Of a DNA stretch of 64,000 nt, positions 1 through 60,800 are shown piece by piece. Position numbers and translations under genes: made by a program. Source of the stretch: Heterotrichella gracilis (Eukaryota > Sar > Xanthophyceae > Tribonematales > Xanthonemataceae); the NCBI GenBank assembly GCA_032358255.1, contig JAULBX010024184.1, positions 1 to 64,000 on the forward strand, in the 5' to 3' direction. The notes beneath the pieces are model-generated. The model was not told the DNA's origin. It saw only the letters and a program-made list of their open reading frames with translations, and did no database searches. Every line of letters begins with the position of its first letter. Position 1 is the stretch's first letter.

Positions 1-3000
1 CAAAATCCCTCCCCTCCTGCTCGATCCTCTGATTCTCCTGCGCTCTCCGGCTCAGCCGGGGCCACAGTCGCGCCCCCCCACCCCCCCCCCCGGCCCCCCC
101 CCCCCCCCCCATGTGATGCACCCAACGTACTCCACCCTCCCCACAGGCTGTGTGGGATGCCCTCTCGGGAGCGCACGCATCCCAGGTGGGGGCCAAGCGG
201 CGGCGGGACAGCGCACCCCACGGCCCCCTCCCCTCTCCCCTTCAGTCCGTATCCCCCCTGGACCTGCTCATGCGAGCCACCGAGGGCGAGGAGGGAGCGC
301 GAGGCCTAGCGCAGGTGCGCACACCCCTCAACTTTGAACCCTACCAGAAACCCTAGCAAAGTTTGCGTATCACTGAAGGCGAGGTGCGCACACCTGCGCT
401 TAAGCCCTGAATCCAAAGCTATAAATTTTGGGTATAACTCCATTTCCAATTGTGCCAGCGCCACTATGTACTTTGTGAAGCCGACGCTGACTGGTGGCAT
501 GTGGCGCATGCTGGGGTGGATGTGGTGCAGTGGGGATCTGCGGCATGTGTGTGTGACGGAGGTACTGGTGGGGACGTATATGCATGGGGGTGTATGCGGT
601 TCCTCGCCCATCCACCAGCCCTCCACCCCTCGCCTTCCGCAGGAATACAGCAAGGTGACGGGCATGGATGTTGCCGCCAGCCCCTCACTGGCGCACCTGC
701 TGGCCTGGCTCACACGCGAGAGGCTACCGCAGGCCCTTGCGCTGACAGCTGTCAAAGTGTGGCTGCTGTCCAGGCACAGGTGGGGGGCGGTAGGGTTTGG
801 GCTAGGATTTTGGATAGGGCTGTGGGCGAGGGTTTAGGGTTTCCTTCAAATGCTGCTGGTGGCATGCGTGTAGGGTATAGGGTTTGTTAGGGGTGCGGGA
901 TTGGCGTGCAGCAGGTGGGGTGGCTGTGGCTGTGGCTGTGGCTGTGGGTAGCGCCCCTTTGCATGCCACTCGACAGCGTGCGACACGCGTTCTGACATCA
1001 GTATCTGTGGGGCAGGTGCATGCGCTCATGCAGGCGCTGCCACCTGGCGCCCCTTACAGCACTCATCATGTTGCACACCCGGCCCTCCTCCCTTCATAAC
1101 ACCCACCCCACCTCCCACTTCCCACAGGTTCGACACCAGTGACTCCCGTGCCCATACACTGACATCAGCAGCCCTGGACCACGCGCAGGCGCTGCTGCAG
1201 GCGCTGCCACCTGGCGCACCCACAGCCCTCGAGGAGGAGGTTCCGGCTGTGGCGGCCTGGCGGTACTGTACCAGCCTGGTGGGGGGGTGCTACCAGGGGG
1301 GCCTGCTGCGGCCGGAGGGTGTGTGTGGGTGGGTGTGCGAGCGGCTGGTGGTGGGGGGTCAGCTGCCGCAGGTGGCGCTGACCAGCCTGCTTCGCCTGGC
1401 GCAGCTGTGCATCAAGGTGAGGGTGTAGGGTTTTGGGGTGAGGTTTGGGGTGAGAGTGATGCAGCTGTGGATTCGGCTTGTGGCGGTTGGGCAAACCCTT
1501 GTGTGGGGTACAAGAGGGGGCTAATGGCATCTTCCATGGGTTAAGGGGTTGAAGATGTGCTGAACATTTGCAAAGAGCAGAACGTGCATGCATGCAGGCG
1601 CCACATGGCAGCGAGTCGAGTGGCGCCAGCCAGCTCGTATCTGCTCACACTCTTGGCATGCCCTCCTCTGGCTTTGGTCAACCTCGCTTGATCAAGCACT
1701 CTGCTCAACCGACAGGCCGTGGCCACCTCCTCAGATCAGCTGCCATCCAAACCCTAAACTCTGACCCTGAAACCTAAACCTGAACCCTACCCCCTGTTCC
1801 GTGCAGGACGTTGCCACCTCCTCTGACCAGGTTCGGCGCCTGACCGACTTCTGCCTGGCACAGCTGCAGCAGCCAATGACCAAGCTCAGCAACAGGCAGC
1901 GCAGGGTGAGCAAGGTACGTGTGTGGGGAGGGGGAGGGGCTGTGGCGCCAAGGCTGACTGCTCAAAGCTTGACCCCGGGTGCTATCCTGACACTGTCTCA
2001 ATTGTTGGCCTTGCCGCCAGTATCTCAAAGGCAAGGTCGGCCCCACCACAGGCATGCGTCTCCCTCCTCTCACTCTGGTGCCTTTTTAAAGCCCCAACAA
2101 CACCCGGGCCTGCCCTCCAAAACCTACCCAATTCCCTTCTCTTCCCGCAGGCCTGCTCCTCCCTGCAGCGACTGGTGCCTTACAACTCCGTTGTAAAACC
2201 CCAGCAAATCGCCATTAAAACCCTAGTAAAACCCTAATAAACCCCTTCTCTTTCCCAGGCTTGCTCCTCCCTGCTGCGCGACCTGCTGTGCCTGGTGCCC
2301 CAGTCCTTTGTCGGGCTGGACCTGCTGCCGCTGCCACCTGGCGTCAACTGGGGGCCGGGCAGCGTGGAACTGGTTGCGCGCAAGGCGGCAGCCCTGGCGG
2401 GGGATGTGCAGGCCAGGTGGGGGAGGGCCTAGGGATTCGGATCTTGGGATAGGGTTTTAGTTTGCACTCTTGCTTAAGTGCATATGCCAATCATTAACAG
2501 TGCCCTAGCTTGAGAGTGTTAGGGTATATGGCCTCTGCTGACACCTTGGGTTTTCATGTGCACACCAGGGTTTTGTTCTACACCCCCTGCCCAAGGTCAT
2601 GCGGTACCTTGATCTCTAGTGTTTTCAAATGCACCCGCAGGGTTTTGTTCTACACCCCTGCCGACATCATGCAGCAGCTGGACACAGGCCTGGCCAACGG
2701 CAGCGTGGAACCTACCCTGGCAGAAATCCTATCAACCGTCACCAAGGGGGCAAAACAATCAGCGAAAGAGGAGGTGGTGGAGATCACGTGCGCGTGGGGA
2801 ATTTCCCATCCCGTGCGCGCTGCGGCGCAGTCCCTGGGACCCGTGCTGGGGGTGGGGCTGGTGGCGGAAAACGGCGGCGGCGGGGGGGTGCAAGGGGGGT
2901 GGTGGGAAGGGGTAGAAGGGGAGGTGGGGGGCGGCGATCGGGTGCTGCGCATGCGCCAGCTGTATGCGGTGGCGGTGCTGCGGTGCCTTGGGGAGCGGGC

Positions 3001-9000: not shown

Positions 9001-11165
9001 CTGCCCTGACCAAATCCCAAAATGAAACCACCTTTCTTTTTCTAAATATATTAATTGCCCCTTTTTACAGGACGTGGACACCCTCCTAGGACGCCAGTCC
9101 CTCTCCTCCGTCGTGGCCCGCCGCTGCTGCCCCCCCGGCCCTTCGGGGGATGCCACGTCAGCGCTGGCGGAGGCGGGTGCGGCCCAGCCCCCCTTTGCGG
9201 TTGAGGGGGGCCTGGCTGCCATGGTTCTGTGCTGCTTGGCTAGGAGCACCTCTGGCCAGCAGAGGGACTTTGCGCAGCAGGTGAGGGTGTGTGTGGGACA
9301 CCCATACCCCGTCCCGCGCTTAGTAGGATCCTGTGTGCAGGGAGGTGAAGGGGCCTTGACATCGGTTCCTCAAGTCCGATTTCTAAACACTGTTCCTCTA
9401 GGCGGTGATGCACCTGTGGAATTACCTTAAACTCTCAACGCTGAGCTCCAAAACCCTAACACCTGTCCCCCCAGGTGGTGATGCAACTGGACCAGCTAGC
9501 CAGCATCATCAAGTCCCTGCCAACCACCACCACTGAGCCCCCCCCACCAGCCCCACCCCCGCCGCCGCCCGACACCCCACCCCCGCCACCTCCGCCGCCC
9601 GAAACCTCCTCCCCCATCGCCCAGCGGCGCACCACTGGGTTTGGAGCGGGCAGGCTGCGCCGCCAGATCACCAGTGCCAGCTCATCCATGCTGGCAAGGA
9701 TGGGCAGCGTGACTTTGGGTACGCTTGGTGGAACCACGTAAACATAAATGGCACAGTTATGTTTACAGTTGCGATCACAACTACAAGTACAACTACAATT
9801 ACAGGTTGCAGTTTGAATTACTGGCGCGGATGGGCAGCGTGACTGTCGATGAACTTAGTAGGAATGGTACAACTACGGTACAATCACTATCACCATCACC
9901 ATTACATTTTCATTCACAATTACATTTTCAATTACAATCACAATTACAATTTCAACTACAATTACAAATACAAGAGATCCAAGCAAAGCACAATGCCTGC
10001 GCCATATCATCCTGGTCAAATGAATCTATACAACGTCTGCAAAAGTATAATTCAGCGAAAGGCCGCACCAAAACGCCCACCTGCCACGTGTGCAGGCACC
10101 CCCGCCGGCGTACAGGTGGCGGTCTGGGAGCGGCTGCTGGTGGTTATGCCACTGCTGCCTGCGGTGTATGCAGACAAGGAGGCAGACGCAGCCAAGAACC
10201 TGCGCCATGTGCTGGCAAGGGCGCTACTGCAGCTGCTGGCATGCCCGCTGCTGCACGCGGGGCCGGAGGGTGGGGGCGGGGCAGGGGAAGGGGGTGCGGA
10301 CGCGCCCGACCCTGGGGCATCGCTGGTAGGGGCTGGGAGAAGGGTGTAAACCGTTATTAGTTGAGGGGGTTGATTCATTGCCAAGCATGGTTATAACATA
10401 AATTTAGCAGTTGATCGAGCATCGCCAATCCCTTGCTCATCTGGTGCTCGTGTATGCTTTTTCCACCCCCTGGTTGGGTTTTGACAGCCTTCATGCAATC
10501 ACGCAACCTCCTGTACCTATTCGCCCCCGCAGGCAGCGCAGCAGCTGGCGCAGGACAGCCTGTTCTCCCGCATGCTCAGCATCCTCCACGCCGTGCTCGG
10601 CGGCCAGTGGGCCCCCTGGCTTCGCGGCAGCCAGGACCGATCCCGCCTACGGGATGTGCCGCTCTTCGACGCCGCTCCCCAGCTGCAGCGCGAGCTGGCG
10701 GCGCTGCCATGCCCGCGTCGCCTGCGGCTCGCGATGCGCGCCGCGATCCCCGCCATGTCGCCGCCGCCGCCCGCCGCGGGGACCGACCCCGCCAATGCCG
10801 CCGACGCCGCCGACCCCTGCATGGACCTCGGCGTCGGCATCCTGCCGGTGTTGCACAGGATGGCGGAGCAAATAGGGGGGGGCGAGCTGTTGGGGCCAAA
10901 CCATGCGCCGCCGGCGCATCCCCCGCCCACATCCCCGCCGCTGCCGTTGGCGCCGCTCCCGGGGCAGCCGCCGCTTCCCGACCAGCCGCCGCTGCCCATG
11001 ATGCCGGAGGAGGACGGCGGCGATATGTCGCCCGCACCGCCGCTGCCGCCAGACGAGGCGCCACCGGAGGCTGCCCCCGTGGTGGTGTGCCAGTGGCTGG
11101 TGGGGAGTGTGCGCAAGCCAAGGTTGAGCCACACCTATGCGCCTGCTGGGTACCCGGCATTCTGA
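1..11165 (+). CDS. MED12: Mediator complex subunit 12 (MED12) homologue, 5' end outside window
   Basis: Large multi-exon gene. In-frame exons: 147-314, 643-779, 1128-1416, 1807-1914, 2259-2416, 2641-3072, 3477-3608, 3888-4490, 4872-5072, 5447-5701, 5923-6426, 6625-6706, 7208-7650, 7946-8111, 8399-8527, 8770-8886, 9071-9280, 9475-9718, 10096-10325 and 10533-11165 (TGA); together 1746 codons with no phase conflict. Two helical stretches resemble plant MED12 (CCT/CRP) as I remember it: a segment with GGCYQGGLLRPEGVCGWV, like the 'W..AEGLL.P....W' repeat, and LLCLVPQSFVGLDLLPLPPG, like 'LVLAVPDTFVALDCFPLP'. MED12 belongs to the Mediator CDK8 kinase module in the nucleus. The C-terminal part (from about 9530) is rich in Pro and acidic residues, with poly-Pro runs. 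No start codon is visible, so the N-terminal domain lies to the left. Identity rests on remembered similarity without alignment; another large HEAT-like protein is possible. Confidence 0.62.
76..110. repeat. Poly-C tract
   Basis: Nearly uninterrupted cytosines in the intron just upstream of the first visible MED12 exon (acceptor at 146). Likely slippage-prone and error-prone in assembly. Confidence 0.8.
918..950. repeat. GGCTGT hexanucleotide microsatellite
   Basis: About four to five near-perfect GGCTGT (Gly-Cys-like frame) units lie in a MED12 intron. A simple slippage repeat. Confidence 0.7.
1005..1222 (+). repeat. Partial copy of a MED12 exon in the preceding intron
   Basis: The words gcaggcgctgccacctggcg and ctgacatcag occur in the same order in the intron (about 990-1060) and in exon 1128-1416 (about 1161-1222), marking a decayed duplicate of the exon's first hundred bases. 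Confidence 0.75.
2147..2290 (+). repeat. Duplicated MED12 exon head with acceptor
   Basis: CAGGCCTGCTCCTCCCTGC at about 2148 mirrors the true exon start CAG|GCTTGCTCCTCCCTGC at 2259, about 107 bases later. Confidence 0.8.
2560..2680 (+). repeat. Duplicated MED12 exon head
   Basis: The word AGGGTTTTGTTCTACACCCC is present both at about 2569 in the intron and at 2639, where it spans the acceptor and start of exon 2641-3072. Confidence 0.85.
8940..9100 (+). repeat. Duplicated MED12 exon head with acceptor
   Basis: ttcttacag followed by a segment reading AKTLLGHQ (about 8941-8975) copies ttttacag plus DVDTLLGRQ at the start of exon 9071-9280. Confidence 0.75.
9388..9500 (+). repeat. Duplicated MED12 exon head with acceptor
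   Basis: ctctaggcggtgatgcacctg (about 9396) copies ccccaggtggtgatgcaactg at the start of exon 9475-9718. Confidence 0.7.
9750..9975. repeat. Degenerate ACAATT-type satellite in MED12 intron
   Basis: Low-complexity array dominated by ACAATTAC / ACAACTACA words, AT-rich and sharply different from the GC-rich flanks. It fills most of the intron between exons 9475-9718 and 10096-10325 and encloses a copy of the preceding exon tail near 9820-9850. Confidence 0.75.
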
Positions 11166-12020: not shown

Positions 12021-15000
12021 TCACTCCCCTTCCTCCCCCTCCCCCCCTTCCTCCTCCGCCTGTGCCGCTGCTTCCTCTCCACCCCCCACCCGCCGCGTCT
12101 GCCTCTGGTACATTTCCACCAGGGTACCAGGCGGCGTGGCCTCATCGGGCCTCTTATCGGGGCGCAGACGCAGGAACCGAGGAAAGCGCAGCCCCATGCC
12201 GCGATCAGGGTGCAGGTGACCTGCCGCCGCCTGCGCATTGGGGGGTGGAGTTTGTACAGATAATATTAATGTTCTTTCACAGGGGATTGCGTGCACAGCT
12301 GATGTATCTTGCCTCAAGAGGTGCCAGGGTCTGCATGGTGCAATGCTAGTGCATGCAAGTGCACTCCCCTAATACTTCGTGGCAACAAGAAATCCATATA
12401 AACGATGGCTGGGGGCAATGATGCAGCGACTGTCGAGATGGAAATTGCTCCTCTCTGAAACAAAGAAAATCCAGCAGAGAATTTTCTTTACACCATTATT
12501 TTTGGATTTATCCCCAGGGGCACCACCATGCACACTGGCATCAGGGTCAGCTTCGCCCGGCCCCTATTTACCCTAACCAAGGGTTTACAATCCAGGCTTA
12601 ACGCTTCCCCTCACCTTGTGCACTGGCGACAGCGTCAGCTCCACACAGCCCACCTTTACCCTAACCAAATGTCTAGGGTTTTAATTAAAGTACAAGCCTT
12701 CCCCTCACCTTGTGCACCGGCGACAGCGTCAGCTCCGCCCCGCGCATCTCCCACACCTCTAGGGGTTCGAACCACACATCAGGTGACTCACTGGTGCGGT
12801 AGTAGGGCTTGGGACCGGGCAGGACAGTGGGCTTGAGGCGGGCGGTGGCCTGATGAGGGGGGTGGAGAGTGAATGGTATGTGTGATTACGAGTGCGGGAA
12901 GTGCAGGATGCAGGTGCCGGTGTGTATGGTGTGGGGGTGTCGGTGGAATGCTGCACAGGTTGCAGTTGGGTTTGAAGCAGGCTTCAATACGTCACATGCA
13001 GGTGTGTTGACATGTCAGCCGTACACCGCCCATAGACCCCGCACTACCCTCCCACGAGTGTGATTTCAAGAATCTGCCCCCTCTTCCCTCCCCTCTCACC
13101 TCTGCGTAGAACACATCGCTGAAGCCCGACATGCACCTGCACAGCGACTGGTACTCCTCGGCATCAGGGTCCCACACAGCTAGCAGGAAGGGGCTGAACC
13201 AGCCCACCTTGCGGCCGTTGCCGTACCACGCACCGATGACAACCAGGTCCAAGGAATCGCGCAGCCCCTCACAGTAATCCCTGGGATGGAGGGGCACGCG
13301 ACACAATTGAGTAACCTATGCGTCGCCCAGGTTGAAAGCATGGAGTGGCAGAAAGTAGCAATGACCACAATGAGGGAATCATGCAGCCCCTTGCAGTAAC
13401 TCCTTAGGGGAATTGGAGGGCAGGGGTACACTTAGCGGCCTGCTCCGCCATAGCGATGTTGGCCAGTTGAATATACATGGGTGATCCAATCAACAGCAAC
13501 GAACAGATATGCTTCTCACCGCTTGATTTTGACCCAGGATTCTGTCCGCTTGGAGGGCTCATAGGCAGCCCCCTTCCCGTCCAGCTTCTTCAGCATCACC
13601 CCCTCCGCCCCAGCCGAAAAGGCTTGCAGCAGAAAGTCATGCACCCGCTCCACCCTAGGGTTTGACTCATCCTCAGCATGGTTTGCATCCAGTACCCTAG
13701 GGTTTGACCCCTCCTCCTGCACCCTAGGAACTGCATCCTCCCCCCTGCTTGCACTGGCACCTGATGCTGTTCCCCCTGGCGTTCCCTCCCCTGGTGCTGC
13801 CTCAGCCACTGATGCCACCCCCTTCCCCACCGATTTCCCCCCTCCATCCCCCCCATTGCCCCCCGCCTCCACCTCAATGGCGGTAGCTAGCTGCACATAC
13901 CCCGCCTCCATGCGGGGCAGCGCCTCAGCCAGCCTGGCTCGCCTGGCCCTGAGCATCTGTCCCAGCAGCACTTCATCACCCAGCAGGAGGAGGTCAAACA
14001 CAAACACGCACACATGCACAGTCACCTGCGGGAGGGTGGGAGAGGAGAGGGGTGGTGGTGGTAGTGGGGGTGGTGGTGGGCGTTATGGGAAGAGGTGATT
14101 TGTTAAATCTTAAGCTGGGATTAGGATTTTACATGTTTTTGACATTAATTATATTGGGAGTACAAGTTCACAGGGATAGCAATATCATAAATCGTCATGA
14201 GATTATGAGCTCAGTATGCAGGGTCCCCCCGCTTCCCGTCGCCTTTCCATCCCAGCCCCTCCCCCACCTGCTCCTCCTCCACCGCCCCCCTTGCCCGCGT
14301 GGCCAGCTCCTGGAATGCGCGCATGCGGAAGCCCTGGGTGCGATCCACAGCCACCAGCTCGCAATCAAGCACCAGTACACCGGGTCCACCTGAGGGAGAT
14401 AAAAAGTGAGTGGACAGAGGTCTCCAAAAAAATTCCAGGTTCTCAAAGGAATGCCAAAAAGGTTTCAAGGTGGTGCAAAGAGTCCAGCCAGGCCGCATAT
14501 GTGCTCCAAGGATTCATAAGATCACGGCCCCACAAGATACTGAAGGGCTGACAAAAGAGCCGTTTCCCACTCACCCTCCGCCGCCCGCCGCACCGCCGCC
14601 ACCACATCAGGGAATGCGCCCGTCTTATCCTCGCAATTGCGCGAGAAGATGCGCACTGTTCCGCCTGGCGCCATGTGAATCTGTGCCCTCTGACCGTCAT
14701 ACTTGTACTCAGCCAAGACTGCTGCTTCAGGGCCCAAGAGGCGCAGGGCATCGGGGACGCCCTCACTGATTCGGGCCAGCATGGGCTTGATGGGGACGCC
14801 TGCGGGGATGGGGACAGTCTGGAATTAAATAGAAGAAAAACAAATAAGATTTCATGCTGCCTGTCCTGTAGCATGGGTTTGATGGGGACGCCTGCAGGAA
14901 TGGGGAAGATACAGAAATGGGATGAATACAAAATGGATCAATAGTGGTTCATACTAAGCATGACTAATTGCAGTGCAAACGCTGAAACCGTCGAAGGCAA

Positions 15001-18000
15001 ATGTGACACATGTGGTGACATCGTGAATATATTAAAGACCTTGCAGTTGACAAGCTTGCTGGTGTGGCACAACATCAGGGTGTTGGTAGGGCTGTAGGGT
15101 TTTGTTCCCAGTCGGTAGGGTTTAGGATTTTGTGACCTGTACCTGGCGTCATTGCGCAGCGCCTCTCCAGGTCATCCACTCCCCCTTCAAGCATGGCGGG
15201 GATGAGCAACCCTAGGTTAGGGCAGGTGTGGTAGGCTGACGTGGCCGCCGCTGCTGCCCAATCAAGCCGCGCCTTGGTGGCCTTGGCCAGACCCTCCTGA
15301 AGGGTTTTCACATTGGGCTTGGCTAGGGTATTGTTGAGATACGCAAGGGCTTTTACAGGACACTAAATTAAGGGTTGTTACCGATTGTTAGACTGATTGC
15401 TTTACTGGTGTGGTAGGCTGATGCTGTGCTTGCTTGAACCCAACGGCCTTCCACAAGAAGTCACAATATGCATGCGTCCGCCCACAGCATAGGGGGGATG
15501 TGCAAATGCAACAAAGAGGCACACATTTGGAATACGAAACACGAAATGCAACCACCGACGCCATGGGATCACCCACCTGGTGAATGACCACCGCGCGTGC
15601 GATTGCCCCTATGACAGACTTCCAGTTGGCTCCCACCCGCAGGTTCTGAACCAGCGTGCGCACAAGGTAGCGCGTCTCACACGACCTGCGGGAGAGGTAC
15701 GGTTTAGGGTTTAACATCACCCTTGCATGCATCGCTGTAATATTTCCACAAACAAATATATCCAACCATTACCCCATCTCTGCAGATACCCCCCCACAGT
15801 GCAAAATCCAATATCATACGATAAACTCTACACTAAACGTTCAACCCCACATGCGACACGCAGCCCTCCACCTCATCCCTTCACCCTACACCCCACCTGC
15901 ATGCCCTAAGCAGCGTCATCACCCCCCTCTGGCGCCTGGCCCCTGCCCCTGCCCCCTTCTCACTTGCCAGCTGAAGCAGGCTGGAGTACACCCCGGGAGC
16001 TGTGAGGGGGGATGGGGGGTGGAGGGTGCCCTGGGAGTATGGGGGAGAGGGGCGGTTAATAGGCAATTGGGGACGGGAGGACATGGAGGACAGTGCAATG
16101 ATGAATGAAGAAGTGGACAATTCAGCCGATGGGTACAATTGGAAGACGCGGATGCAACAGTGGTCTTACACATGCCATGACACCAGAATCACATACATCA
16201 AACAACACATGCAAAATTTGCCTTGAAATACGATGGTCATACGACAGTGGCCACACGTTGGTACTTTCAGCACGGTCTCCTCACCTGCGTCCTCCTGCAG
16301 GCCTGGGCCACATCTCCCAGGTCCCCCAGCTCATTGTACATTTCCCGCATTTTGGCCCTTTTCACCCCCGTGGCCTCCTGAATCGCCTGGCTCACGGTGC
16401 TCCCCCCGATGCTCAATTCCACCCCCTCATATTCCGGCGCAATTTTGCCGCACAGCAGATATGCGGCAGGGAGGGCGTCGCCGGGCGAAAGGGCCAAAAT
16501 GGACCGGAAGCAATTTGTGACCACATCTGCGATTTTCAGCCGCTTAGTGGTCCCATCCATGGCCTCAAATGCGCGCGCAATGTGCAGGTAGGGGGTGGGC
16601 TGGCCAGCGGCCCAAGGGGCGTGCGCTACCTGAAGCAAGGGGAGGGAATGGGGGGCCGTCACATGGTGTAGTACGCACATGGACGCAGTCACATGGGTGG
16701 GCAACAAAAACGGAATTTGCACAGGACATTCTTGTCCTTCAACAGCCAAGTCTGTGGCCCCTGATGTGTACAATCTTTGTACATACCAATGAGCCCAGGA
16801 GTAGCAATTTGATAGGACAAGGGCATTGAGTGCTGCTGCTGCGCACAGAGCATGTGCTGTAGGGTTTCCAGCATGCATAGGGGATAGGGTTTGACCATCG
16901 CCTGGTACTTCTGTAGTGACAGCGCAAAGGACAGCGTGCCAACTAGGGTTTAGGGTTTAGGGTTTAGGGTTTAGCTCACCGGCTGATACTCCTGCAGCGA
17001 CAGCGCAAAAGGCTGTGACACCTCCACCTTGGGAGTTGAGGCAGGCTTGGGAGGTTGCCCACCAAGGGGAGCAACCCCTTCAGCATCAGGGGAGGAAAGG
17101 TGCGCCCCAACTGGCCGCTGTGCTGCGGTGTCCCTTGGCTGTGAGGTTCCGGCTTGCGCTAGGGTTTCGGTGGGGTTTAAATTGGGCTCTGAGGCAGGCT
17201 GAGCGGCAGATGTGCCTGCGGCAATGCTGGCTGTGGTATCTGGAGATTGCCGGGCAAGCTGGGGGCTGGCATTGAAAAACGCAGCAATACCCTGTGTCTT
17301 GGCGGGAGTGGCGATTTTGGAGCTGCGTTGCTGCCCCGCTGCTGGGGATTTGCCGGCTGCATTTCCAGACCCTGGTGTGGCCCCTTGGAATTTGGGCCCT
17401 TGGGCAGCGCTGGAGGAGGCCAATGTGGCGCTGGTTCCAGACAGAAAGGACAGCATGGTGCGCTGATTTGACGCATTCTGGTGCTTGGTTCGTTTACTGG
17501 CAGGCTTTCCTGGCGGCCCCCCATTGGCCACCCGCTTGCTGCCTCCATTGCTTGCATTTGAGCCTGGTTTCGAATTTGAATTTGACCCCCCATTGGCTGC
17601 ATTTGAACTCCGTTTTGAATTTGCATTTAGCCCCCCATTGGTGCTGTGTGGCCTCGTCGATGTGGATGGCTGGGGCCGATCATAGAATGCATTTATCGCC
17701 ACACCAATATCAAATTTGGCCGATTGCAGCAAGTGCAGGGCGTCATCCCTGAAACATTCACCCCCCACCACTGCCACCAGCTGCTCCACAGCAGCTGCCT
17801 GGGCAGCATCCAGGCTGGGACCGGGGGAAGGCGGCGGGTGGGAGGGTGGACGGTGGTGTGTGGGGCTGTCTGCTGAGAGATCAACTGCAATGGGGTCATT
17901 TGGAGCTGCTGGCTCATCTGCTGTATGGGCTCTATCCAGGGGTTCTGATATGCTCATTGCGCGGGGGGAGTGTAGGGATGCTGATTGACCAGCCGCAGGT

Positions 18001-21000
18001 TGCCCGATGCTGGCTGGGCCACTGCATGGACCAAGTGCATTGGCTGGGCTGGCAGAAGGGTCATCGCTCAGCTCCCAAAACCCTTCCTCGTCGTCACTCG
18101 CCACAGATGCCTCTCTGCCCCCACCCCCTGCCCTGCCCTCTGCGCCATTCACCATTCCTCCCCCTGTCTGCATAGGCTGCGCCCCTTCTGTTGGGCGCAT
18201 TGTTGGAGGGTCACGCATGCTGTCCCCTGCTGCGAGCTCATTTGCACCCAAAATTGACAGGTCAATGACATCAGCGCCAGGAATGCTGACATCCTCCTCC
18301 CCTCCCTCTTCTTGCATCGCATCATCCACCTGGCTGGCTAGGGTTTTAGGATTTTGCCCGCGCCGGAGCGAGGCCAGGAAGGTGGCCTTGGATGCGGTTT
18401 CATCCACCAGGTTTCTGAAATGCTTGACCATAGACGCTGCCTTCTTGTCCCCGTCTTCGCCCCCAGAGCCCACTGTGGGGATGACCTGCACCCCCAACAC
18501 ACACATTTTGAGATAGCAAAATCCCTCCAAACCCTCCACCCCATGCACACAGTACCAATTCTCTTAGCAACAGCCTATTCTACCGTCCTAAGACGAGGAC
18601 AAGAAGGCAGCGTCCATGATCAAGGATGTCAGGGTTCATGTCCTCGTGACTCCCACCTTGTGCGGTTTCATCACGCGCACGTATTCCCTCAGCTCGGAAT
18701 AGCTGCTGTGCTCGCTGTAGGGTACAAGGTGCACGCTGCATGCGTCCTTGCTCCGCTGGGGAAAGCTCACCCCACCATTGCCATTGCTGTTGCTGCCGCC
18801 AGCTGCACTGCACCATCCAGTGGGCAAAAAACCCACCAGCTGCAAACACAGGAACAGGGTTAGGGTGTTGGAAAACCCTTCCCTACAATTTCCAAAAGCC
18901 CTGCGATTGACTGGCTTCCTACAGGGGTAATGAAGGCGCCTTGCACACAACCGACAAATCTTACGGGGTCTGCGCACATCTCTGGCCTCCATAAATGCAA
19001 ATGGTTTCAGGATATACAGCTTAAGGTTTCCAGGTAATGCCGGCACCACATTCCCTATGGTAGTGCTCCACCTATGGATAATTGGTTTTGGGTGTAGGAC
19101 TAAGCATTTCCCCCGCACCTCCTCCAACCCCCGCTCCCTCCAATATTCCCCATCTACAGGTAATTTGGTTTAGGTTTTAGGTTTTGCACGCACCTCATCC
19201 GCCCCCCGCTCCCTCCTATATTCCTCCATCTAATGTTTTGGTGTAAGGTTTAGGATTTAGAATTTGCACGTACTCATCCGCCCCCGCTCCCTCCGATATT
19301 CCTCCATCTGATATTTTGGTTTAGGGTTTAGGGTTTGCACGCACCTCGTCCGCTCCCCGCTCCCTTCGGTATTCCTCCATCTGCACAAAGTTGGGGCGGT
19401 AGTATGGCCACGTCTCCCCCAGGAAGCCCCAGGGCACCACGTGCACGCATGTCTCCCCCTCGTCCAACGTGAATATGTCATCCACCCGCTGAGGGCCTGT
19501 GGGCAAGGTGAGAAGGGTTATGAGTTGTGGGTGGGACCAGGGGGAGTCTGGATTCATCCTGATGTGGCATGTGCCTGCTGGCGTATGGTTTTGCATGGGC
19601 ATGCGATAGGCTGACGTGGCAAAATTGCACATGATCGTAACGATTGGGCATGGTCATAATATTGGCACATTGGCACACCTACCCGCACGATAGGTTTGAG
19701 ATGAGCATGCCAGCACCGCTGGCTTTAGTGATGTCCTTGCCCACACGTGGCATTGCAACACTGCCTGGCAAACCACAGGACAACCACTGTACACGCACAT
19801 ACACAAGCCCACTGCCCTGCACAGCCTGCCCCTCACCGCTCCACTCCAGGCAGCGCATGACCTCCAGCTTCTTGGCAGAGACACAAACCTTGACACCACA
19901 CCGCTCATGCACCTGCATGGCACACACACATATTGCTTTGCACCGTAAAGTGGAGCATGGCGCGGCTGCATCAGATCGTAATTTACGCAAGGAAGGGCCA
20001 TTGCACTTAAAGGTAGGCCCAAATTGCATGGCGAAAGCAATGGTTTCCGGCGTGTCATACTCAAGCACTATTTGTGGTTTGCTTCATAACAAAGAAACCG
20101 AAAAAACAACAATTTGATGACGTACATGCAGTTCACACACTGCTGCTCCACGGTCAACAACCCCTCATCAATGGATCCCAGACCCGCGTCCCCATTCCCA
20201 ATACCCACAACCCCTGCCCAAGGGTCCGCACGCACCGCTGTCAATATGCGCTCCTTGCCAATGACGTATGTTGAGACGAGGAACAGGCGCCTGGTGCCAC
20301 TGCCAGCAGCGTCCGCCATACCCGCTGCAATGGTGGCGGCAATGTACTCCGAGGATTCCTCCTACATAGCAAGCTCTGGTTACTAGGCATCTTGGTAATC
20401 ACACTGTCAAAGATTGGGTTAGGCTTGGTGCATGATGCACATTGTGAAAGCAGGACACGATCTGGCTGACACAAGTGAATATGTGCAAAGTAATCAAGGG
20501 GTGTGTCCTTAAAAGCGTGACACAAATCAGGCAATTGGGCAATCTGCGCGCTGTAATTCAAGCCATGGTATTGCTTGTTGTGCAATCTGCGCTCTGTTAC
20601 CAATGCAGGAGGCAACCACCAACCCGCACCACAGAAACCCGATGCCCAATAAAGTCACAGCTACACCCCACCCCTGACCCACTGCGGCACCGCCTCCGCA
20701 GCCCCCTTACCATAGTGGGAAACGCATAGCGTGGGTGGCAGTATGTGGTGTCGAGGAACAGCCCTGCCGCGCCCCTGAACCGCATGAGGTGCGCGTCTGA
20801 GGCCATGGCGGTGTGGTAGCGCATATCTCCGCTATGCACATAGCGGCGGCCATCGGGCAGGCGGAACAGCACCTGGACGGCCCCGGGGCAGTGGTGTGCA
20901 TCCACTAGGGTCACCTCCACACCTGCAAGGTGTGTGGGTCAGGAGGGTTTGTCTAACCCATTACAAGAGTTTAGAAAGGACTGGTTGCATTCACTAAGGT

Positions 21001-21841
21001 CACCTCCACACCTGCGGGTGTGTGCGGGAGTGCTGGGGGTGAAACCCTTGGCTTCACTAATGCACAAACACGTATACACACGCACAATGGTGTCAACATA
21101 CATATATGCAGAAATGGGATGAACGTTGTGCACGTGTGTAGCGCTGCTCCCCACCCATGCCTCCACCCCACTCACCTTGGACTTGCTGCGGAATGTTGAG
21201 CGGGAGCGGGTGCAGGTGCGCCGCGTCCACCCCCAGCAGGTGCACCACCAGGCGGGCGGTCACGTGGCTGCAGTAGATGGGGCCAGCGCACCAGCTGTCG
21301 GTGATGCCGGTGTAGTGGTCTGAAGGGGGCGGCAGGAGATTGGGCTTGTGGGGTTGTGTGGTGGGTACGGAGCGGGTAGGGTTCAGGGAAGCAGGTCGTG
21401 GATGTTGCATTATCAAATGGAGATTTGATAAAATAGTATTGGGAACAATATGTTGCACGCTCTTGTTAAGAGAAAGCTGAAGTGGGGCTGTGGTTCGACT
21501 GCTCTGTGTGCTATGCATGCATCGGTGCGTGAGATGTACAGCCTTTCGGCACGCAAAGGCTGACCGAACTGCTGAGTTATCCAAAGAAAACAGAAACATA
21601 CGAAGGACTGGATACCAGAACAAGTCACTTTACTTGGTCAAAGCGTTGCATATGTGATGGGTTTTCGCCCTGGCCACATGCATGCACATGCCGGTTACCC
21701 AATTGTTTCTCCCCCAATTGAAGCACCCTTACCTGAATGTGCATGCGTCAGAAAGTACGCCTTGATGTTGGGGTTGGCGTAGCGGAAGGCATCCACCACA
21801 AACCCAGTACCGGGTACGCACTTGTGTGGTGGCACTGCCAT
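12021..21841 (-). CDS. LIG6: DNA ligase 6-like: SNM1 beta-CASP nuclease fused to ATP-dependent DNA ligase
   Basis: Exons (5' to 3'): 21841-21733, 21319-21176, 20922-20711, 20361-20236, 19912-19837, 19496-19345, 18839-18657, 18485-16980, 16629-16285, 16030-15897, 15685-15577, 15296-15143, 14799-14575, 14389-14268, 14025-13520, 13280-13100, 12849-12709, 12230-12021; 1544 aa, all phases fit. The ATG at 21839-21841 follows an in-frame TGA. Residues ~1-385: metallo-beta-lactamase/beta-CASP domain (HAHSDHY metal motif, HHCPGA, HSGDMR, DTTYC, YSEHSS). Residues ~335-836: one long exon with a UBA-like helix bundle (~556-600), Ser/Asn-rich linker and a PIP box (QRTMLSFL, ~670). Then ligase DNA-binding domain, adenylation domain with catalytic Lys in [10 protein letters not shown] (~1117) and LDCE motif, and OB fold. 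Order matches plant LIG6, which seals DNA breaks; nuclear location inferred. Confidence 0.93.
12520..12745 (-). repeat. Three copies of a LIG6 exon tail with donor site
   Basis: The tail of exon 12849-12709 (encodes [10 protein letters not shown], then GTGAGG) recurs downstream in the intron near 12606-12650 (nearly identical, donor retained) and, more decayed, near 12520-12560. The spacer word tttaccctaaccaa is also repeated (about 12567 and 12655), giving a unit of roughly 90-95 bases. Confidence 0.8.
13252..13415 (-). repeat. Duplicated LIG6 exon head
   Basis: The head of exon 13280-13100 (encodes [14 protein letters not shown]) has a diverged copy immediately upstream in the intron, about 13370-13415 (reads [13 protein letters not shown]). 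Confidence 0.75.
14781..14910 (-). repeat. Duplicated LIG6 exon head with acceptor site
   Basis: The acceptor plus head of the adenylation-domain exon (encodes GVPIKPML) is copied about 90 bases upstream at about 14872-14910, including a usable-looking CAG acceptor. Confidence 0.8.
16898..17020 (-). repeat. Duplicated LIG6 exon tail
   Basis: The tail of exon 18485-16980 ([10 protein letters not shown]) has a diverged copy ([10 protein letters not shown]) in the intron at about 16898-16945. The TTTAGGG array lies between the two. Confidence 0.75.
16943..16977. repeat. Interstitial telomere-like TTTAGGG array
   Basis: Four to five perfect TTTAGGG units directly abut the donor of the LIG6 exon ending at 16980. 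TTTAGGG is the telomere repeat of many plants and green algae. Confidence 0.9.
18430..18625. repeat. Inverted copy of LIG6 exon segment
   Basis: The exon segment encoding [12 protein letters not shown] (- strand, about 18430-18470) reappears in inverted orientation within the adjacent intron at about 18590-18625, where the + strand reads [11 protein letters not shown]. The two arms could pair as a hairpin in the transcript. Confidence 0.75.
19116..19383 (-). repeat. Four tandem copies of a LIG6 exon tail and donor
   Basis: The tail of exon 19496-19345 ([12 protein letters not shown] then GTGCGT) is followed in the intron by three diverging copies at about 19266-19315, 19185-19235 and 19116-19160. 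Each is linked by TTTAGGG-like sequence. Period is about 70-80 bases, and similarity falls with distance from the exon. Confidence 0.85.
20905..21020 (-). repeat. Duplicated LIG6 exon head with acceptor
   Basis: The head of the exon starting at 20922 (GVEVTLV) and its acceptor are copied upstream in the intron at about 20979-21020, including the run ggtcacctccacacctgc. Confidence 0.8.
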
Positions 21842-22323: not shown

Positions 22324-23363
22324 ATGGGTCGTATGCACAGCAGTGGCAAGGGCCTGAGCGGTTCCGCGCTGCCCTACAAGCGCACCTCTCCATCATGGTT
22401 GAAGACAACCAACCAGGAGGTAATGCTTGCGTATGACACGACGGATGGGGGGCGACTTTACGTCGATGTGCGGGGTCTCCAAGGGTGGAATAGTAGAGTG
22501 ATCGGCACTCTAAGGGTGCCGAGCCCGGTGGCCTCTTTATGCCGGGAATCTTGTCATAAATAGGCATGTGGGTGGGCCGCCGAATCTGGGCGCTGTATCC
22601 ACCTGCACAGCACCCTTACTGCACAAACCCTTGCAGTAGTGTGACTTCTGCAAGGGGAAGACACAAGAGTGCGTAGGAATGTTGCTTCACAGTTGAGGCC
22701 CCTGGTGTGCATAAAGCAAACCGTATCCACCACATCCCACCACATGCCCTTCATGTTTTACTGACCCAACTGCTGCCCCGCCACCTGCAGGTGATTGACC
22801 ACATCGCCAAGCTGGCCAAGAAGGGCATGACCCCCTCCCAGATTGGCGTCATCCTGCGTGACTCCCACGGCATCCCCCAGGTGGGCACCGTGACCGGGTC
22901 CAAGATTCTGCGTATCCTCAAGGCGCAGGGCCTGGCCCCCGAGATCCCCGAGGACCTGTACCACCTCATCAAGAAGGCTGTGTCCATGAGGAAGCACCTG
23001 GAGGTGAACCGCAAGGACAAGGACGGCAAGTTCCGCCTGATTCTTGTGGAGAGCAGGATCCACCGCCTGGCCCGCTACTACAAGGTATGCTGGGGGACAG
23101 CGCGGCGACGTGGGTGGTATTGGATGGATTGCATTGCCATCTTCTAGTGTATGCTTGTAGTTGCGTGCTTACCCGAATCAGGCTTGTAGACTTGGAGGCA
23201 AGATGTGCTGCAGGTTTTGTTCAAAGTGTCTGTCGACTGTTTATGCGTCATCAGGCGCTGCTGTGTCGCTCACCAGCCCCTTTCTGTTGTCTTGCAGCGC
23301 ACCCGCAAGCTGCCTCCCAACTGGAGGTACGAGTCTTCCACCGCCTCCGCCCTGGTGGCCTAA
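22324..23363 (+). CDS. RPS13: 40S ribosomal protein S13 (uS15)
   Basis: Three exons, 22324-22419, 22791-23084 and 23298-23363 (TAA), encode 151 aa, exactly the usual eukaryotic RPS13 length. The protein starts [20 protein letters not shown], has the conserved [16 protein letters not shown] segment, and ends with the [20 protein letters not shown] region and a short Ala-rich tail. It is a component of the small cytosolic ribosomal subunit, where uS15 binds the central domain of 18S rRNA. The start context ACCATGG is strong. Introns are both phase 0. It is head to head with LIG6. No anomaly. Confidence 0.98.
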
Positions 23364-38531: not shown

Positions 38532-38632
38532 CCTGGGTTGGGTGGGGCTGACTTGGCGCTGTTTAGGGTTTAGGGTTTGGGCGCGACCTGCACTGCTATG
38601 TCGCGATTGCTGCTCAGATGCTGACCAGGGAT
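38490..38632 (+). repeat. Copy of the lipase 3' coding end
   Basis: The last codons and stop (CGACTTCTGCTCAGGTGCTGA) have a diverged copy about 100 bases downstream at 38587-38632, separated by TTTAGGGTTTAGGGTTT. Confidence 0.75.
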
Positions 38633-39729
38633 GTCACGGTGTGGGGGTAAGTCAAAAGGGCTGCGGGGTTTGGGACTATCTGAATGGGGCGGGTACAGGT
38701 TTGTCAGTGCTGAAATGAGGTTTGTTGTTTATAGGCTGGCAGGTGTAGCATAGGACAGGCAATTTTCCAGCAGGTGGTGTGGGTGGGTAACCTTTTGACC
38801 TGCAGCGTTGGTCAGTTGGCGTGGCTGGCGTGGTCAGAGGATGTGCCCTACATCCTCAACGCTCGCCTTGCCCTTCATTTCTTAGGATATAGTGAGCCTA
38901 CTAGTGAGAAGGTGGAGCTCCACGTAGAATTTTGGAACAAGGGTAGGATAGGTGATGGTCTTCAATTTTCAGGATAGGGTTCAGGACACAGGAGAGCATG
39001 TACGTCAGGTCACATACTCGCGTTTTGACACTCGGCCCAGCTGAGATCTACCTACTAGATTCTACCCCAGCCGTCTTGTGGTCCCACATGCCGGCTCGCG
39101 AGGACGTTGTGTTCTTTCTTACTGCAGTGTCGAGCATAGTGTCTGTGATCTGTGAGAGGATTACTAATTGCACCAACTAACTGGCGTACTTTGTAATATC
39201 ACAGGCACACATGATATATCTCGATTATTGAAGCAATAAAAATACAAACTCAACTCAATGTGATCACAGCCACATGCAATCCAGACAGGCAACACCAACA
39301 CCAGCAGGTTGTAGCACTAAGACTAGCTTAGTGTTGCACTGGAGACCAACCTTTGTACAAGTTATGTGACCATACTTGCTAAGTGAACAATGTGCTGATA
39401 GCTCTACTACAGACATTGAAAAAGCGGGGACATTGAAATTGGCTGTCTAGTTGACAATTAATTCGCTGCAGCTGGAAACTAAAAGGGAAGGCTTGAACAA
39501 GAAGAGTTTGGTGCGTTGATGAAAGCTGCAGTAAAAATCCCCACGTGAAACAGATGTTGGTTTGGCAGTGGAATGGCATTCAAAAACTGAACGCAGATGA
39601 GGCAGTCGCCCCCTTTTCGATGTGCCACACCACCCAGCAGCCTACCATGGCAAGCGCCGAGTGCGATTGCAATGCGTGACTCAGTTGACACGCCCCCGGC
39701 GCCCTTGTAACTATCCTCTAAAGCGGCGC
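38532..39729. other. Tail-to-tail intergenic region, lipase/urate oxidase
   Basis: About 1.2 kb with the two 3' UTRs. Apart from the copied lipase end (38587-38632) I see no gene, RNA or repeat. Confidence 0.5.
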
Positions 39730-42048
39730 TCAAAGCTTGGACCACAGTGTGTTGTGTGGTGGGGCGGTGTCGCGAGTGATCACGCACTCGATGTTGCCGT
39801 GTGGCTCGCTGGTGGCGATGTACACGTCGTCCTCAAACTTGGAGGTCACGGGGTTGCAGGGGAGGAAGTGGATGTTGGGCAGGTTGAAGAAGATGCTGTC
39901 CACCTGGGGCACCCTGCAGAGGCAAAAATTTAGGGTGTAGGGTTTTAGCTTTTTTCCCAAGGGACCGCGGGTGAGCCACAAGGGGAGAGCATCGCACCGC
40001 ACATGCATGTTTATGAACAGGCGTCGGCACTGATTTTGCGTTATAATAGGACATAGCATCAATGCCTGCTCATTCATTCATTGCCGATTTTTGATTATTG
40101 CTTTTGTATATGCATTGTGTCTGCCTGCCACAGCCTGTCCATACAGTGGTGCTCCTGAACGTTGAAGGTGAAACACATAGCATATGCATGGGTGATGGCA
40201 CCTACATCTCAATCACGTTCTTGCCCATCTGGTACATGGTGTACTGCACGGAGGGTGAGTACACGCCCTTGTCGGGGGGGCCGAAGAAGCTCTCCGCCAC
40301 CTGGCGCTTCACGTTCTCAAAGGTGGCGTCGTAGTTGTACACGGGGCCACGGTACCTGAGGAGGGGGGTAACAAACAGGGTTGGCGCAGGACAGGCCGGG
40401 TGCCAATTTCAGGCTTTAAGGTGGCTGATGGGCATGCCTTTGCCAACCAGGTGCTCCTAAACAATGCTGTTAACGCACGCTGGATGGCGGGTTTCTTTAG
40501 TGACTGCGGGCTAGTGGTGGGTGACAGGTGCTTGCCTTTGGGCTTAGCTGCGTTGAATCGCCAGTGCAGAGGTGCAGAAATGGTGTAAGCAGTGCCAGAC
40601 AGGGCTGGGTGGTGCAAGGCATGGGGGGAAGCTTGCTGGGCTGGCTGCAGTGCATGCAACCACTAGCTAAGCATGATGCTTTGCGCTGTCGTACTTCCAG
40701 GTGGCCGTTACTGTGGTGGCCAAGATGCGCTCCTTGCAGTCGGGCAGCAAGGTGTACTTGTCGTGCAGGAAGCCCTCGTAGCCGGACTGGGTGGTCTTGA
40801 GGACAGAGAGGTCACGGAACCCTGCGCCACACAGAGGGGGGTTTAGGGTTTAGGGTTTAGGATTTAGGGTTTATCTTCAGTGGCTGGCCCTCAGAGGCTG
40901 TGACAAGAAGCAAGGGCCACCGTTTGGTTGAAAACGGAGGGTTTGGTGAAAGGTACAGCAGCAAGCAAGCGCCACAGTTTTGCTTGACGATGTCACAGGC
41001 GGGGAGGTGTGAGGCAGCACACCAGGTGATACCCTACCTGAGGTGACCTCCACCTTGCCTGCCCTGTCAACAGTCACCATGGTGGTCCTGACCTCAGTAC
41101 CAGTCACAGCAAAGCCTGCAAAGGAGAGATATGGTATCAGCAGGTGCAAGCATACAAGTGGGCGCTCGCAAATCAATAGGGCTTGAGAGGCCCTAGGTGC
41201 GCACCATGGTTGTGTGGCCGCCCCTGGACATCAACCCTCTTCCAGGGCTTCTGCTCAACATAAATCTTCGCCTTCCACACCTGTGGGGCAAAATAACAAA
41301 TACAAGGCTTCATATTTCCACAGCAAAAGCGTATACACCAGAATGCAGCAGGTATCGAGGGTTAGGGTAACAGGGGGAGCAAGGGGCGGTTTACCTTTGG
41401 GTACTCTGCTACAAAGTGTTTGGCCAAAGCGATGGCGTATTCCTCCACGGTGCAGCGGGTTGCACACTGTTTGGCCACAAAGTACACCTGCGGCAGCACC
41501 CAGTGGTGGGGGTCACGATTAATCAGCACATGGGGGCATGCCAGCCACAATCATCATATACAACCATCCCGCACTGGGAACCTCAAACTGAACTACAGCA
41601 CTAAAACAGTAGTTGCGCGCTTGCAAAAGATCAACGCTACCTAGGCCTGTAGACGTCGCCAAAAGCGCCTGATCTGCCAGCTAGCACACACGGGGCACGT
41701 CGCCATCACGTGCATGCCACTGCAATGGCTGCAGCTCGTGCCCACAGCAAACAAGCAAACTTGTAAGATCAGCCTCCTAAACCCAAGTGCTCAAGCAACC
41801 ATCAGTCTCACAACCAAGGTTAAGGCACCCTTGTCTAGCTATTGCCAATATCCCCTTACCGTGTTCTTTTGGGTATCGGTTGCAGTCATGTCGGTGTTGG
41901 TGCCCACGAAAAAGTTCTGAGCCATATCCGACTCCAGTGTCGTCTGCACGTTCCACTCCACAAAGTGGTGCACGTTGCCCTCCCTCCACGTCCTGCCAAG
42001 ACGCACCCTCGACTTGCCATGCTGATGTTCAGCGAGCTTGGCCGCCAT
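39730..42048 (-). CDS. UOX: Urate oxidase (uricase), peroxisomal
   Basis: Seven exons: 42048-41860, 41487-41395, 41280-41205, 41115-41038, 40821-40695, 40355-40206, 39913-39730 (TGA); 298 aa, the usual length. It oxidises urate with O2 to 5-hydroxyisourate in purine breakdown. Recognisable blocks are KSRVRLGRTWRE and HHFVEWNV, the TATDTQKNTVYFVAKQC segment with the catalytic Thr, AIALAKHFVAEYP, SGFRDLSVLKTTQSGYEGF, FGPPDKGVYSPSVQ, and the C-terminal NIHFLPCNP plus SEPHGNIECVITRD. The protein ends in SKL, a classic PTS1 peroxisome signal. The start context ACCATGG is strong. It is divergent with the Ser/Lys-rich gene. Confidence 0.98.
40843..40873. repeat. Interstitial telomere-like TTTAGGG run
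   Basis: Three to four TTTAGGG units (one degenerate) lie next to the acceptor side of the urate oxidase exon starting at 40821. This is the last sizeable telomere-like run in the window. Confidence 0.85.
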
Positions 42049-57840: not shown

Positions 57841-60800
57841 ATGCGCCCTCTATGCGCCTTCAAGGTACCTGCGTCAGCGGTCACCGTAATACTCCCAACT
57901 ATCCTGTTCTGGCGAGCTCGAGAGGTGGCTGGTTCGTCATGGCCATGGGACGCCCTACCCCCACCGGTACACCCAAAGGTATCGCACCTTTCCAGACTGC
58001 CACTGCTTTCATGCGCACCATCTTCCCCAGGTATCTGATAAGTGAATTGCTCGTTTATCGAAGAATGGTTGTGACAGCACTACCGACTGGTCCCACAGGT
58101 CACTGAACTAGAGCAGGAGGCAGCACACTTCAAGTTGAAAGATTGCCCATTGGACAAGCTGATTACGACAAAACGGAATACGGCTGGGTTCAACAACCAG
58201 CTGACCATGGTCCAATTCGGCCTCATGCTGGGTAGGTCGCTGCACTAGCCTAGGTGAGTGCACACTCACGAGGGTTGGCTTTAACTTACTATGCCACATC
58301 GGTAATAGGTGTATATAGTGGTGGCAGATACTGATACTACAGCATTTTATATAGGTGTCTAAAATTTAAAATCGCTTTTATTTCCTTCCTTCGTCATTCA
58401 ATGATATGTAAACATGGTCCAGTTCGGCCTAATGCTGGGTAGGATTTTTTCATGTATTGTTTTGAGTGCCAGGATATGTTCAAATTAACCACCTGTAAAA
58501 CCAATATTGCTATGATGCTACATATACACGGAACACTACAAACAATAAAATGTCTTTCTGGCTGTCCGTAGTGCGCACCTTCACCTGACCATGCAGTGCC
58601 TTGCAGTCATGCAAAGGTTTTTAACCACCACTCCGTTCTCGCAAACAAGCAAATAACGCAAATGGCTGTCACTGCCACGTCTCTTTACAAATTGTTTTGC
58701 TACAATTGGAAATTGTTTAAGCAAGGTTGCCGAGTGCCACTGCCCCAGGCCGCCTGACCAACCGAACTTTCATCCTCCCACCCCTCAGCACCGCCTACCA
58801 TGATAAGGTACCGGTGTTCTTTTAGGACGCACTGGAGGTGCAGGAGCTGCGCAAGTTTTGGTGAGGCCCGACCCAACCCACATGCACAGTGAGCACATGA
58901 CATGCAGCACATTGTGAACTGCAAGTGTGCTGCAGCATATATGTGCGCATAATTAATGCCTGTGACAGTCATAGCAAATGTGCACAACTTATTTTAAAGC
59001 ACAAGTAAGCAGACGATCCAAATCAGTGCCGGCAATCAATCCCAGCCATTGTGAACGTTGCATGTCCAGGATAGTGCAAGAGCGCCGCATGCAGTGATCA
59101 TGCATTGGTGTGCCACCAATGGGCAAGAGCCTTACTGAACTCTGGTCCAGCATCCATTAGAGAGTGAAGGGGATGGGGGATAGTGCTGAGCTATGCAATC
59201 AAGAAACACAGCCAGATTAGGATTCACGCTTGCAGAAGTAATGCCAGAGCACTAGGGTACGCAACTGTCCAGCAGTTTGCTTAATTGTTCACCCCAGGCA
59301 AGCATTTGTGTAAACCCGTCCCTGTGATTACCTCCATCCATGCAGGCCCTGTTTTGTGGAGCTTGAACCCCACGAGCATCACCAACCAGCACCATCAAAG
59401 CGTACCAACAACCAGCAACCATCATTTTCCCCTGCAACCCCGACTGACCTATCCTCCTCAACTGGCGGTCTCTCACACCTCAACGCCACCTCCTACATCA
59501 CACAATTGCTGCGCCAGGGGGGATATCAGAACCTGAGAGAGGACCTGCATCAAAGAGGCCATCCAATGCAAGTTTTTGCAGGTTTGTGTGTACACATGTG
59601 TGTGTGGGGGGGGGTATGGGGTGTGTGGGGGGATCCCGGCTGGGGAGGCATGGCGCTGTGTGTGGAGGTGTTTGCCCACTCAGATGGGTGTGTGGAAGGC
59701 CGGTGTCAATGCATATAGTCCCTCCGTGACACACAGGCTCTTGCAAGGAATGTTATTTGGTACAGGACAACACCAAAATTAATGGCTACCCCAGCGCTGC
59801 AGCGAATATTTCTGTAACTCGTTACCATGCTTGTGTGGACACGTTATATCTGTCGTTGTATGTATATACGTTAAAATAGGCGATATGATAGCACATAACA
59901 TGAAAGGTTGATTAATCCATCATTGAGTGGTTCCCTAATCACTGCCTCTTTAGCTACAGCCACACGTAACACGCAACAAAGAAAGCAGGAAAAACAGCTC
60001 CTACTGATAGGTACCCCCATTTCCCAAAATCCCTACTTGCATATTTATAATACAAAAAATAAATAGAATTATCTATAATATATTTTGCATGGTATAATAT
60101 CAGGGGTGTTGAATGCACATCATGAAGGTTTTATTAAACACATTCTTACGTTCCCAAAACGACGAGATTGTGTAACAAGTGTAGTTATTTTGGACAATAC
60201 ATGGTGGTTTGGTGCTGTATGTTAGGCCATTCATATGCATGCACATTTATTTGGGAACAGTCCAGATTATGGAACAGGTTCCCATATGCGTCATGGCCAC
60301 TCTTTTCATTCCATTATCCCTCCATGCAGACTGGGCCAGCAGCAAGAGCGTGGCCAACTCCCCTGTTGTCTTCATTCCCCACAACACCCTGTTCACTAGC
60401 TGTCCCGGGGATTCTGCCTGGGACGAGCATTTTTGGCGCCACGTAGCACCAGCTGTTGACGTGGCACGCAAGGTGGAGACTTACCTGAAGGAATTCCTCC
60501 CAGAGGCAAGTCGGCAGGACCCGTGGGCTGACTAGGCTGATCTGACTCACCAGGACTTTGCGCAAGGTCAACATACCGCATCCAACAAACTTGATAAATG
60601 TCAACAGATGGCATCAAAACACTTGGTATAATGTGGAGATAATAAACGTTTGGCGCCCCTTAAGGCCGTGCATATATGACTGCTGAAATGACTGCAAAAT
60701 ACATTTATGAAAGTATTTATATAGCTCAGAACCTGCATTACTAATTGCAACACAGCATGTGCTGGCAATTGCCTTGGTTGGTTGAGAAAAGTGTGAGGTA

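Follow-up and report, generated by a model that had tools for sequence, protein, structure and literature searches.

In a 64,000-nt stretch of the Heterotrichella gracilis genome (contig JAULBX010024184.1, from here on the window) introns carry copies of the edges of the exons that flank them, and it is confirmed that these exon-edge copies are real and also occur beyond the window. Most of them are probably one half of a long target duplication around an inserted run of telomere repeat, a structure which we call X-telomere-X and in which X measures about 25-90 bp. Paired direct repeats, telomere filler between them, the rarity of such pairs at telomere-free sites and their presence in introns as well as in intergenic DNA are directly seen, and from the sequence we infer that the telomere run is the inserted part. 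The first-pass annotation of the window, which had described the exon-edge copies, missed both the telomere-like filler and the presence of the same X-telomere-X structure deeper in introns and in intergenic DNA, which means that it is not confined to exon borders.

The DNA examined consisted of the window and 20 stretches of 10 kb (200 kb) from contigs C35 and C57 of the 68.5 Mb assembly, and of a separate sample from other contigs, in which 60 (CCCTAAA)3 sites were each taken with their surroundings (301 bases per site). Eight further loci of 3 kb entered none of the counts. Genes in the window and the 200 kb were predicted by a self-written two-strand hidden-Markov gene finder trained on the data, which gave 43 genes and 382 introns with a median of 302 nt. 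Exons shorter than 60 nt were treated as part of the surrounding intron, and after removal of introns longer than 1500 nt there were 330, of which 329 were N-free. All statements on exons and introns depend on these predicted models, while the telomere-side tests of the 60 loci are independent of them. The gene finder fused the ribosomal protein S13, DENND6 and lipase genes into one and predicted no gene around 58.4 kb.

Each intron was aligned with its own 60-nt flanking exon edges. At a score of at least 16 the upstream edge was matched in 16/329 introns and the downstream edge in 22/329, where shuffled intron-exon pairs predict 0.7 and 0.4 (38 matches versus 1.1 expected for both edges pooled). 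Inverted matches numbered one upstream and one downstream in the 329 introns, and exon-interior segments, taken 120-180 nt inside the exon, had no match in introns at the same score (0/155 and 0/171). Introns with at least one copy at a score of at least 15 make up 18/86 in the window and 24/244 on the two other contigs. We also scored 25 positions that cover the 20 cases listed in the first-pass annotation, comparing the local repeat within about 320 bases with the window background. A repeat above background is present at 24 of them, with p values of 0-1.8% which are upper bounds because sampling of the null windows extended over the whole window, the locus itself not excluded; position 8946 (score 10, p 0.225) fails. 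Chance as the source of the copies is ruled out by the shuffled-pair and the window-null comparisons, as the original description had it.

Extending the search to up to 300 nt of exon produced 58 matches. Of these, 44 are anchored at most 13 nt from the junction and belong to 35 introns; the remaining 14, deeper in the exon, were excluded from later counts. The exon part of these anchored copies is 18-77 nt long (median 32) and they are situated 22-215 nt from the junction (median 81). The earlier statement that similarity falls with distance does not hold for the 44 copies (Spearman 0.03, p 0.87). That the copied pieces are exon edges is mostly correct, except that the copies at 1005 and 15408 are of exon-interior sequence and the one at 38587 lies past the lipase stop codon; that they are usually on the same strand agrees with the direct-strand bias, with 18590 being inverted. 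The copy at 38587 consists mostly of the last lipase coding bases, just past the predicted stop (38531) and with 12 telomere-like 7-mers between, so that no splice site is involved there.

In the exon sequence next to the junction (0-20 nt) copies cover about 6%, in the 40-60 nt interval 1-2%, and farther in the coverage is near or somewhat above the shuffled level, with a maximum of 2.1% versus 0.3% at 240-260 nt. A coarse test, in which 60-nt windows with a direct repeat at most 240 nt away were counted, gave 3.5% in introns, 3.8% at exon-intron edges, 1.2% in intergenic DNA, 1.4% in exons and 0.07-0.3% in far controls, and left undecided whether duplication is generic throughout introns. 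This was rejected on a finer profile of local direct repeats, which showed concentration near junctions: it peaks 20 nt inside the exon (5.8% at donors, 8.8% at acceptors), is below 1% by 60 nt into the exon, mostly stays at 1-4% in the first 200 nt of the intron and amounts to 0.3-0.6% beyond 240 nt. Inverted local repeats are rare near junctions and reach 1-5% of 40-nt windows more than 220 nt deep in long introns, where direct ones are falling.

Copying of the exon alone was rejected as the general case, as the intron flanks often match too. Mean alignment scores of the flanks were 11.4 versus 6.5 in shuffled pairs for 17 donors and 10.5 versus 6.8 for 24 acceptors (41 of the 44 hits, three that start more than 13 nt from the junction being removed), and some strong copies, e.g. 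at loci L009 and L010, have little flank match. AG is kept at the exact aligned position in 19/24 acceptor copies and GT in 8/17 donor copies; if the position may differ by at most 3 nt (acceptors) or 2 nt (donors), 20/24 and 11/17 keep the site, and 18 of these 20 acceptors and 8 of these 11 donors score above the tenth percentile of predicted sites. Decoy splice sites are therefore left in introns, as had been expected. Copy-bearing introns are also longer than the others (median 390 versus 312 nt, p 0.005).

The interval between copy and exon is rich in telomere-like sequence (CCCTAAA/TTTAGGG). In the 44 anchored cases it covers 12.0% of this interval, whereas copy-free introns of matched end and length have 1.9% and the remainder of the copy-bearing introns has 2.5%. 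At least one telomere 7-mer is found in 25/44 intervals versus 14.9% in matched introns and, when every intron is counted once with its nearest copy, in 17/35 versus 14.7% (p 2e-6). Over 49 events telomere coverage is 37.1% between copies and 8.9% in the 50 nt outside them. TTTAGGG is the likely ancestral telomere repeat of green algae, according to PMC12636532. A separate observation concerns copy-free introns, in which the CCCTAAA orientation predominates near acceptors (9.4 versus 0.7 per kb in the last 30 nt), perhaps since the pyrimidine tract would be interrupted by the opposite one.

The same association is found when one starts from the telomere repeats. Telomere-like blocks were collected regardless of genes in 264 kb and their left and right flanks were compared with telomere 7-mers masked. 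Direct repeats at a score of at least 15 flank 44/315 blocks, a count that includes one N-run artefact and some rows that are units of one array or one pair counted twice, while 0.9 are expected and four inverted ones were seen. Among large blocks, direct repeats flank 16/55 near junctions, 5/26 and 4/19 deeper in introns, 3/13 in intergenic DNA and 0/9 in exons, and among telomere-free control sites 0.3-2%. With N excluded and a score of at least 16 the counts are 41/312 for all blocks and 27/120 for large ones, as against 40/1264 and 4/107 for seven distinct permuted heptamers (eight were typed, two of which are mutual rotations; the eight-row sum is 43/1493, and 4/133 for large blocks). Simple-repeat composition was rejected as the cause, since the permuted heptamers show the effect only weakly.

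Exact (CCCTAAA)3 has 834 matches genome-wide, overlapping ones counted, and the reversed pattern has none; the places fetched are mostly far from contig ends. Sixty independent sites were taken in listing order, skipping overlaps and one site already in a tile. Direct repeats at a score of at least 16 flank 27/60 of them (8/20, then 19/40), whereas inverted repeats flank 1/60 and 1.1% of 3540 shuffled flank pairs reach the score. The duplication is 25-89 bp long (median 37) and the spacer 24-128 (median 41). At L048 a 34-bp duplication, 33/34 identical, encloses a 25-base spacer that is telomere repeat but for one base, and at this locus as well as at L049, L061 and L079 telomere sequence is present between the copies and absent just outside the pair.

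The individual sites in the window are as follows:
992-1064, plus strand: copy of the exon-interior segment 1159-1230 in the exon after the intron (58/73)
1713-1739, plus strand: copy of acceptor and exon start 1804-1830, with telomere-like block 1749-1789 between
2136-2170, plus strand: copy of acceptor and exon start 2245-2278 (31/35), with imperfect telomere-like block 2218-2244 between
2566-2612, plus strand: copy of acceptor and exon start 2638-2682 (38/47)
9390-9416, plus strand: copy of acceptor and exon start 9463-9489, with telomere-like block 9451-9459 between
9821-9864, plus strand: copy of exon end and intron start 9691-9733, with ACAATTACA-like filler and no telomere between
12524-12580, minus strand: outer copy of LIG6-like exon end (array of three), telomere-like block 12570-12587
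12604-12655, minus strand: inner copy of LIG6-like exon end and donor 12698-12749 (46/52), with imperfect telomere-like block 12658-12681 between
13361-13420, minus strand: copy of exon start and acceptor 13236-13293
14870-14906, minus strand: copy of exon start and acceptor 14778-14814 (34/37)
16885-16928, minus strand: copy of LIG6-like exon end 16966-17009, with perfect telomere repeat 16944-16974 (4.4 units) between
18590-18632, no strand assigned: inverted copy of 18415-18457 (38/43), which may be a different repair event
19107-19383, minus strand: array of an exon-edge unit (about 78 bp) with telomere-like sequence between units, real edge 19337-19383
20982-21024, minus strand: copy of exon start and acceptor 20892-20936 (40/45)
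27303-27354, plus strand: copy of acceptor and exon start 27419-27470 (42/52), no telomere between
34897-35047, plus strand: more copies of lipase exon end and donor 34829-34872, unit 78 bp, no telomere 7-mer between
37413-37715, plus strand: three copies of lipase exon end 37352-37399, two of them taken as exons by the gene finder; telomere-like blocks of this array at 37405-37411, 37469-37512 and 37625-37640
38486-38633, plus strand: X-telomere-X at the lipase gene end, telomere block 38561-38578
58413-58443, plus strand: copy of 58206-58236 (29/31), offset 207, no gene predicted there

Seven protein pieces of the window were compared with Pfam, which recognized an SNM1/ligase fusion (DRMBL; DNA_ligase_A_N, A_M), a lipase region, uricase (39730-42048, minus strand) and ribosomal protein S13 (22333-23858, plus strand), the last two being genes that the first-pass description of the copies does not name. 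The DENND6 piece matched Avl9 weakly, below the Pfam cut-off, and the single MED12 piece had no Pfam hit. Simple repeats resembling ACAATTACA, and not telomere, separate copies at L013 7307-7432 and at 9719-9973 of the window, possibly as a second kind of filler. Similar genes on C35 share, by eye, an exon-edge copy in apparently the same intron (L012 5680-5830, L013 5400-5551, L016 4441-4528); the duplication may thus predate the gene duplications and offers a possible decay clock.

We propose that X-telomere-X would begin with a break that has long overhangs, left by two offset nicks. A 3' end at the break would be extended by telomerase, and fill-in and end joining would then retain the overhang sequence on both sides, so that X is duplicated. 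A telomerase RNA-binding domain (PF12009) is encoded on contig C626. If X lay across a donor or an acceptor, each copy would include the splice site; an mRNA spliced at the outer one is the same as before and the event would survive, while the inner copy would turn into intron and decay, giving a longer intron that holds a decoy splice site. Arrays such as 19107-19383 and 37352-37715 could arise through additional rounds or by unequal exchange of units, and copies without telomere between them (e.g. 9821-9864 and L013 7307) may come from the same repair with other or eroded filler. The identity of the copies, spread over about 70-100%, fits events of different age. Tandem duplication from long-overhang breaks or paired nicks has reportedly been described by Schiml in 2016 and by Vaughn and Bennetzen in 2014.

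Both components of this proposal have counterparts elsewhere. In PMC2246262 and PMC7215372, telomeric insertion at breaks is reported in mammals, some of it with direct target duplication explained by staggered breaks, and 31% of human short interstitial telomeric sequences are in introns and none in exons. The sites described here resemble these in being short telomere-repeat inserts at internal positions, some with target duplication. Target duplication is a minority in the mammalian data given there (6/130 rodent, 4/25 primate and 3/66 horse loci plus two complex ones), unlike the repeats of 25-89 bp at 27/60 sites here, the intronic ones of which often include the splice junction. In mouse cells breaks with 46-nt 3' overhangs were mainly repaired into tandem duplications, as PMC5730883 states, and the structures are alike in being direct duplications at a break, as overhang fill-in is expected to give; they differ in that telomere repeat often fills the space between the copies here, and in that the events here have become fixed. 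Mammalian telomere insertion and the mouse overhang duplications, if combined, would give X-telomere-X. Each part is thus known, and the combination, its frequency and its consequence for splice sites look new; among the titles listed in a literature search none concerns long duplications around telomere inserts in introns, which does not prove their absence.

X-telomere-X events have a preference for exon-intron borders which this model does not supply a reason for. A predicted junction is spanned by 20/35 intronic events, array units included and so not all independent, where uniform placement predicts 19%; allowing twofold visibility from one conserved copy raises the prediction to 32% (p 0.002), and for younger events the count is 13/20 (p 0.002). 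As the excess remains after twofold visibility, some border preference is unexplained. The exonic class consists of 2/41 events, one of them 1 nt from a junction, and insertions inside exons would presumably be lost. This border excess is one of several points that weigh against X-telomere-X as the source of the copies. The nearest copy-to-exon interval has no telomere 7-mer in 18/35 introns with an anchored copy, and 33/60 perfect telomere runs have no flanking repeat at threshold, which could be explained by age or another insertion mode. Permuted heptamers have flanking repeats as well (40/1264, more than their shuffles give), so some of the local duplication has nothing to do with telomere repeat. 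Telomere-like sequence also occurs outside the abutting pair (8/18 on the 5' side, 6/16 on the 3' side, with arrays confounding the register), and exchange between existing telomere runs may make some pairs; arrays and exchange do contribute. Finally, the gene models are predictions, some with neighbors fused.

Among other explanations, ordinary short tandem duplication, by slippage or unequal exchange, of units already holding a telomere-like stretch would make the motif a passenger or a recombination site. Several loci are indeed true tandem arrays with a block length at least equal to the offset, and the telomere-like sequence just mentioned outside abutting pairs also speaks for it. We nevertheless consider this explanation unlikely, because telomere coverage in the 49 events is much higher between copies (0.371) than outside (0.089), because permuted heptamers associate much more weakly, and because L048, L049, L061 and L079 have telomere only between copies; for such events pure tandem duplication is rejected.

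The model favored in the first-pass annotation, border-specific gain or lengthening of introns by duplication of an AGGT-containing exon segment, agrees with the direct-repeat signal being highest at the junction and with intron gain in a potato gene by duplication crossing an intron-exon border, described in PMC4974935. The duplications here likewise cross the border and carry splice signals, but unlike in potato what they leave is added intron length and an inner copy in decay, a trace found in dozens of introns and often with telomere filler, and no new intron is shown. If AGGT duplication had created introns, the donor region of an intron should be repeated in its acceptor region, and such repeats are not clearly in excess: one intron at a score of at least 16 (the lipase array) versus 0.2 expected, and four at a score of at least 13 versus 1.7. 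The same structures also occur deeper in introns and in intergenic DNA. Intron gain of this kind is rejected for want of a clear signature of intron creation, and the model as a whole appears improbable. What stands of it is the lengthening of introns and direct duplication across borders, with break repair as the likely origin.

It is also quite improbable that a retroelement with a telomere-repeat end (Penelope-like), or target-primed reverse transcription by telomerase, left short dead copies with long target duplications. Such an origin would suit the long target duplications and the short, often almost pure telomere insert, yet the duplication length is highly variable (25-89 bp) and inspection of the spacers by eye shows no element body, no dedicated element search having been made. 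Introner elements resemble the structures described here as intronic insertions with target duplications; the spacers here are unlike them in being mostly telomere repeat by eye, with no repeated body seen and no family search made. It is very unlikely that selection maintains the copies as functional alternative exons or as regulators of splicing, since, although many keep AG or GT and the gene finder accepted some as exons, those at L012, L013 and L016 seem by eye to diverge about as much as the surrounding intron and some copies carry frame-shifting gaps.

Exon-edge copies accepted as exons by the gene finder are 2151-2174 (a mini-exon), 12615-12653, 19194-19229, 27309-27347, 37528-37609 and 37667-37686, and automatic annotations of this genome may hold the same error, with exon-edge copies called mini-exons. 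With X-telomere-X, longer introns and decoy splice sites would both be traceable to one definite type of mutation that can be dated, namely the insertion of telomere repeat with a long target duplication. Selection acts on the exon copy, so each event can be dated from how far its partner has decayed. How splicing tolerates duplicated splice sites, and whether such duplications become new introns, could be tested in this genome. It is possible, and for now a tentative thought, that insertions made by telomerase at staggered breaks act in this lineage as a mobile element without a body, which prefers borders and would be a leading cause both of introns growing and of splice sites being duplicated, providing raw material for alternative splicing and for occasional new introns.

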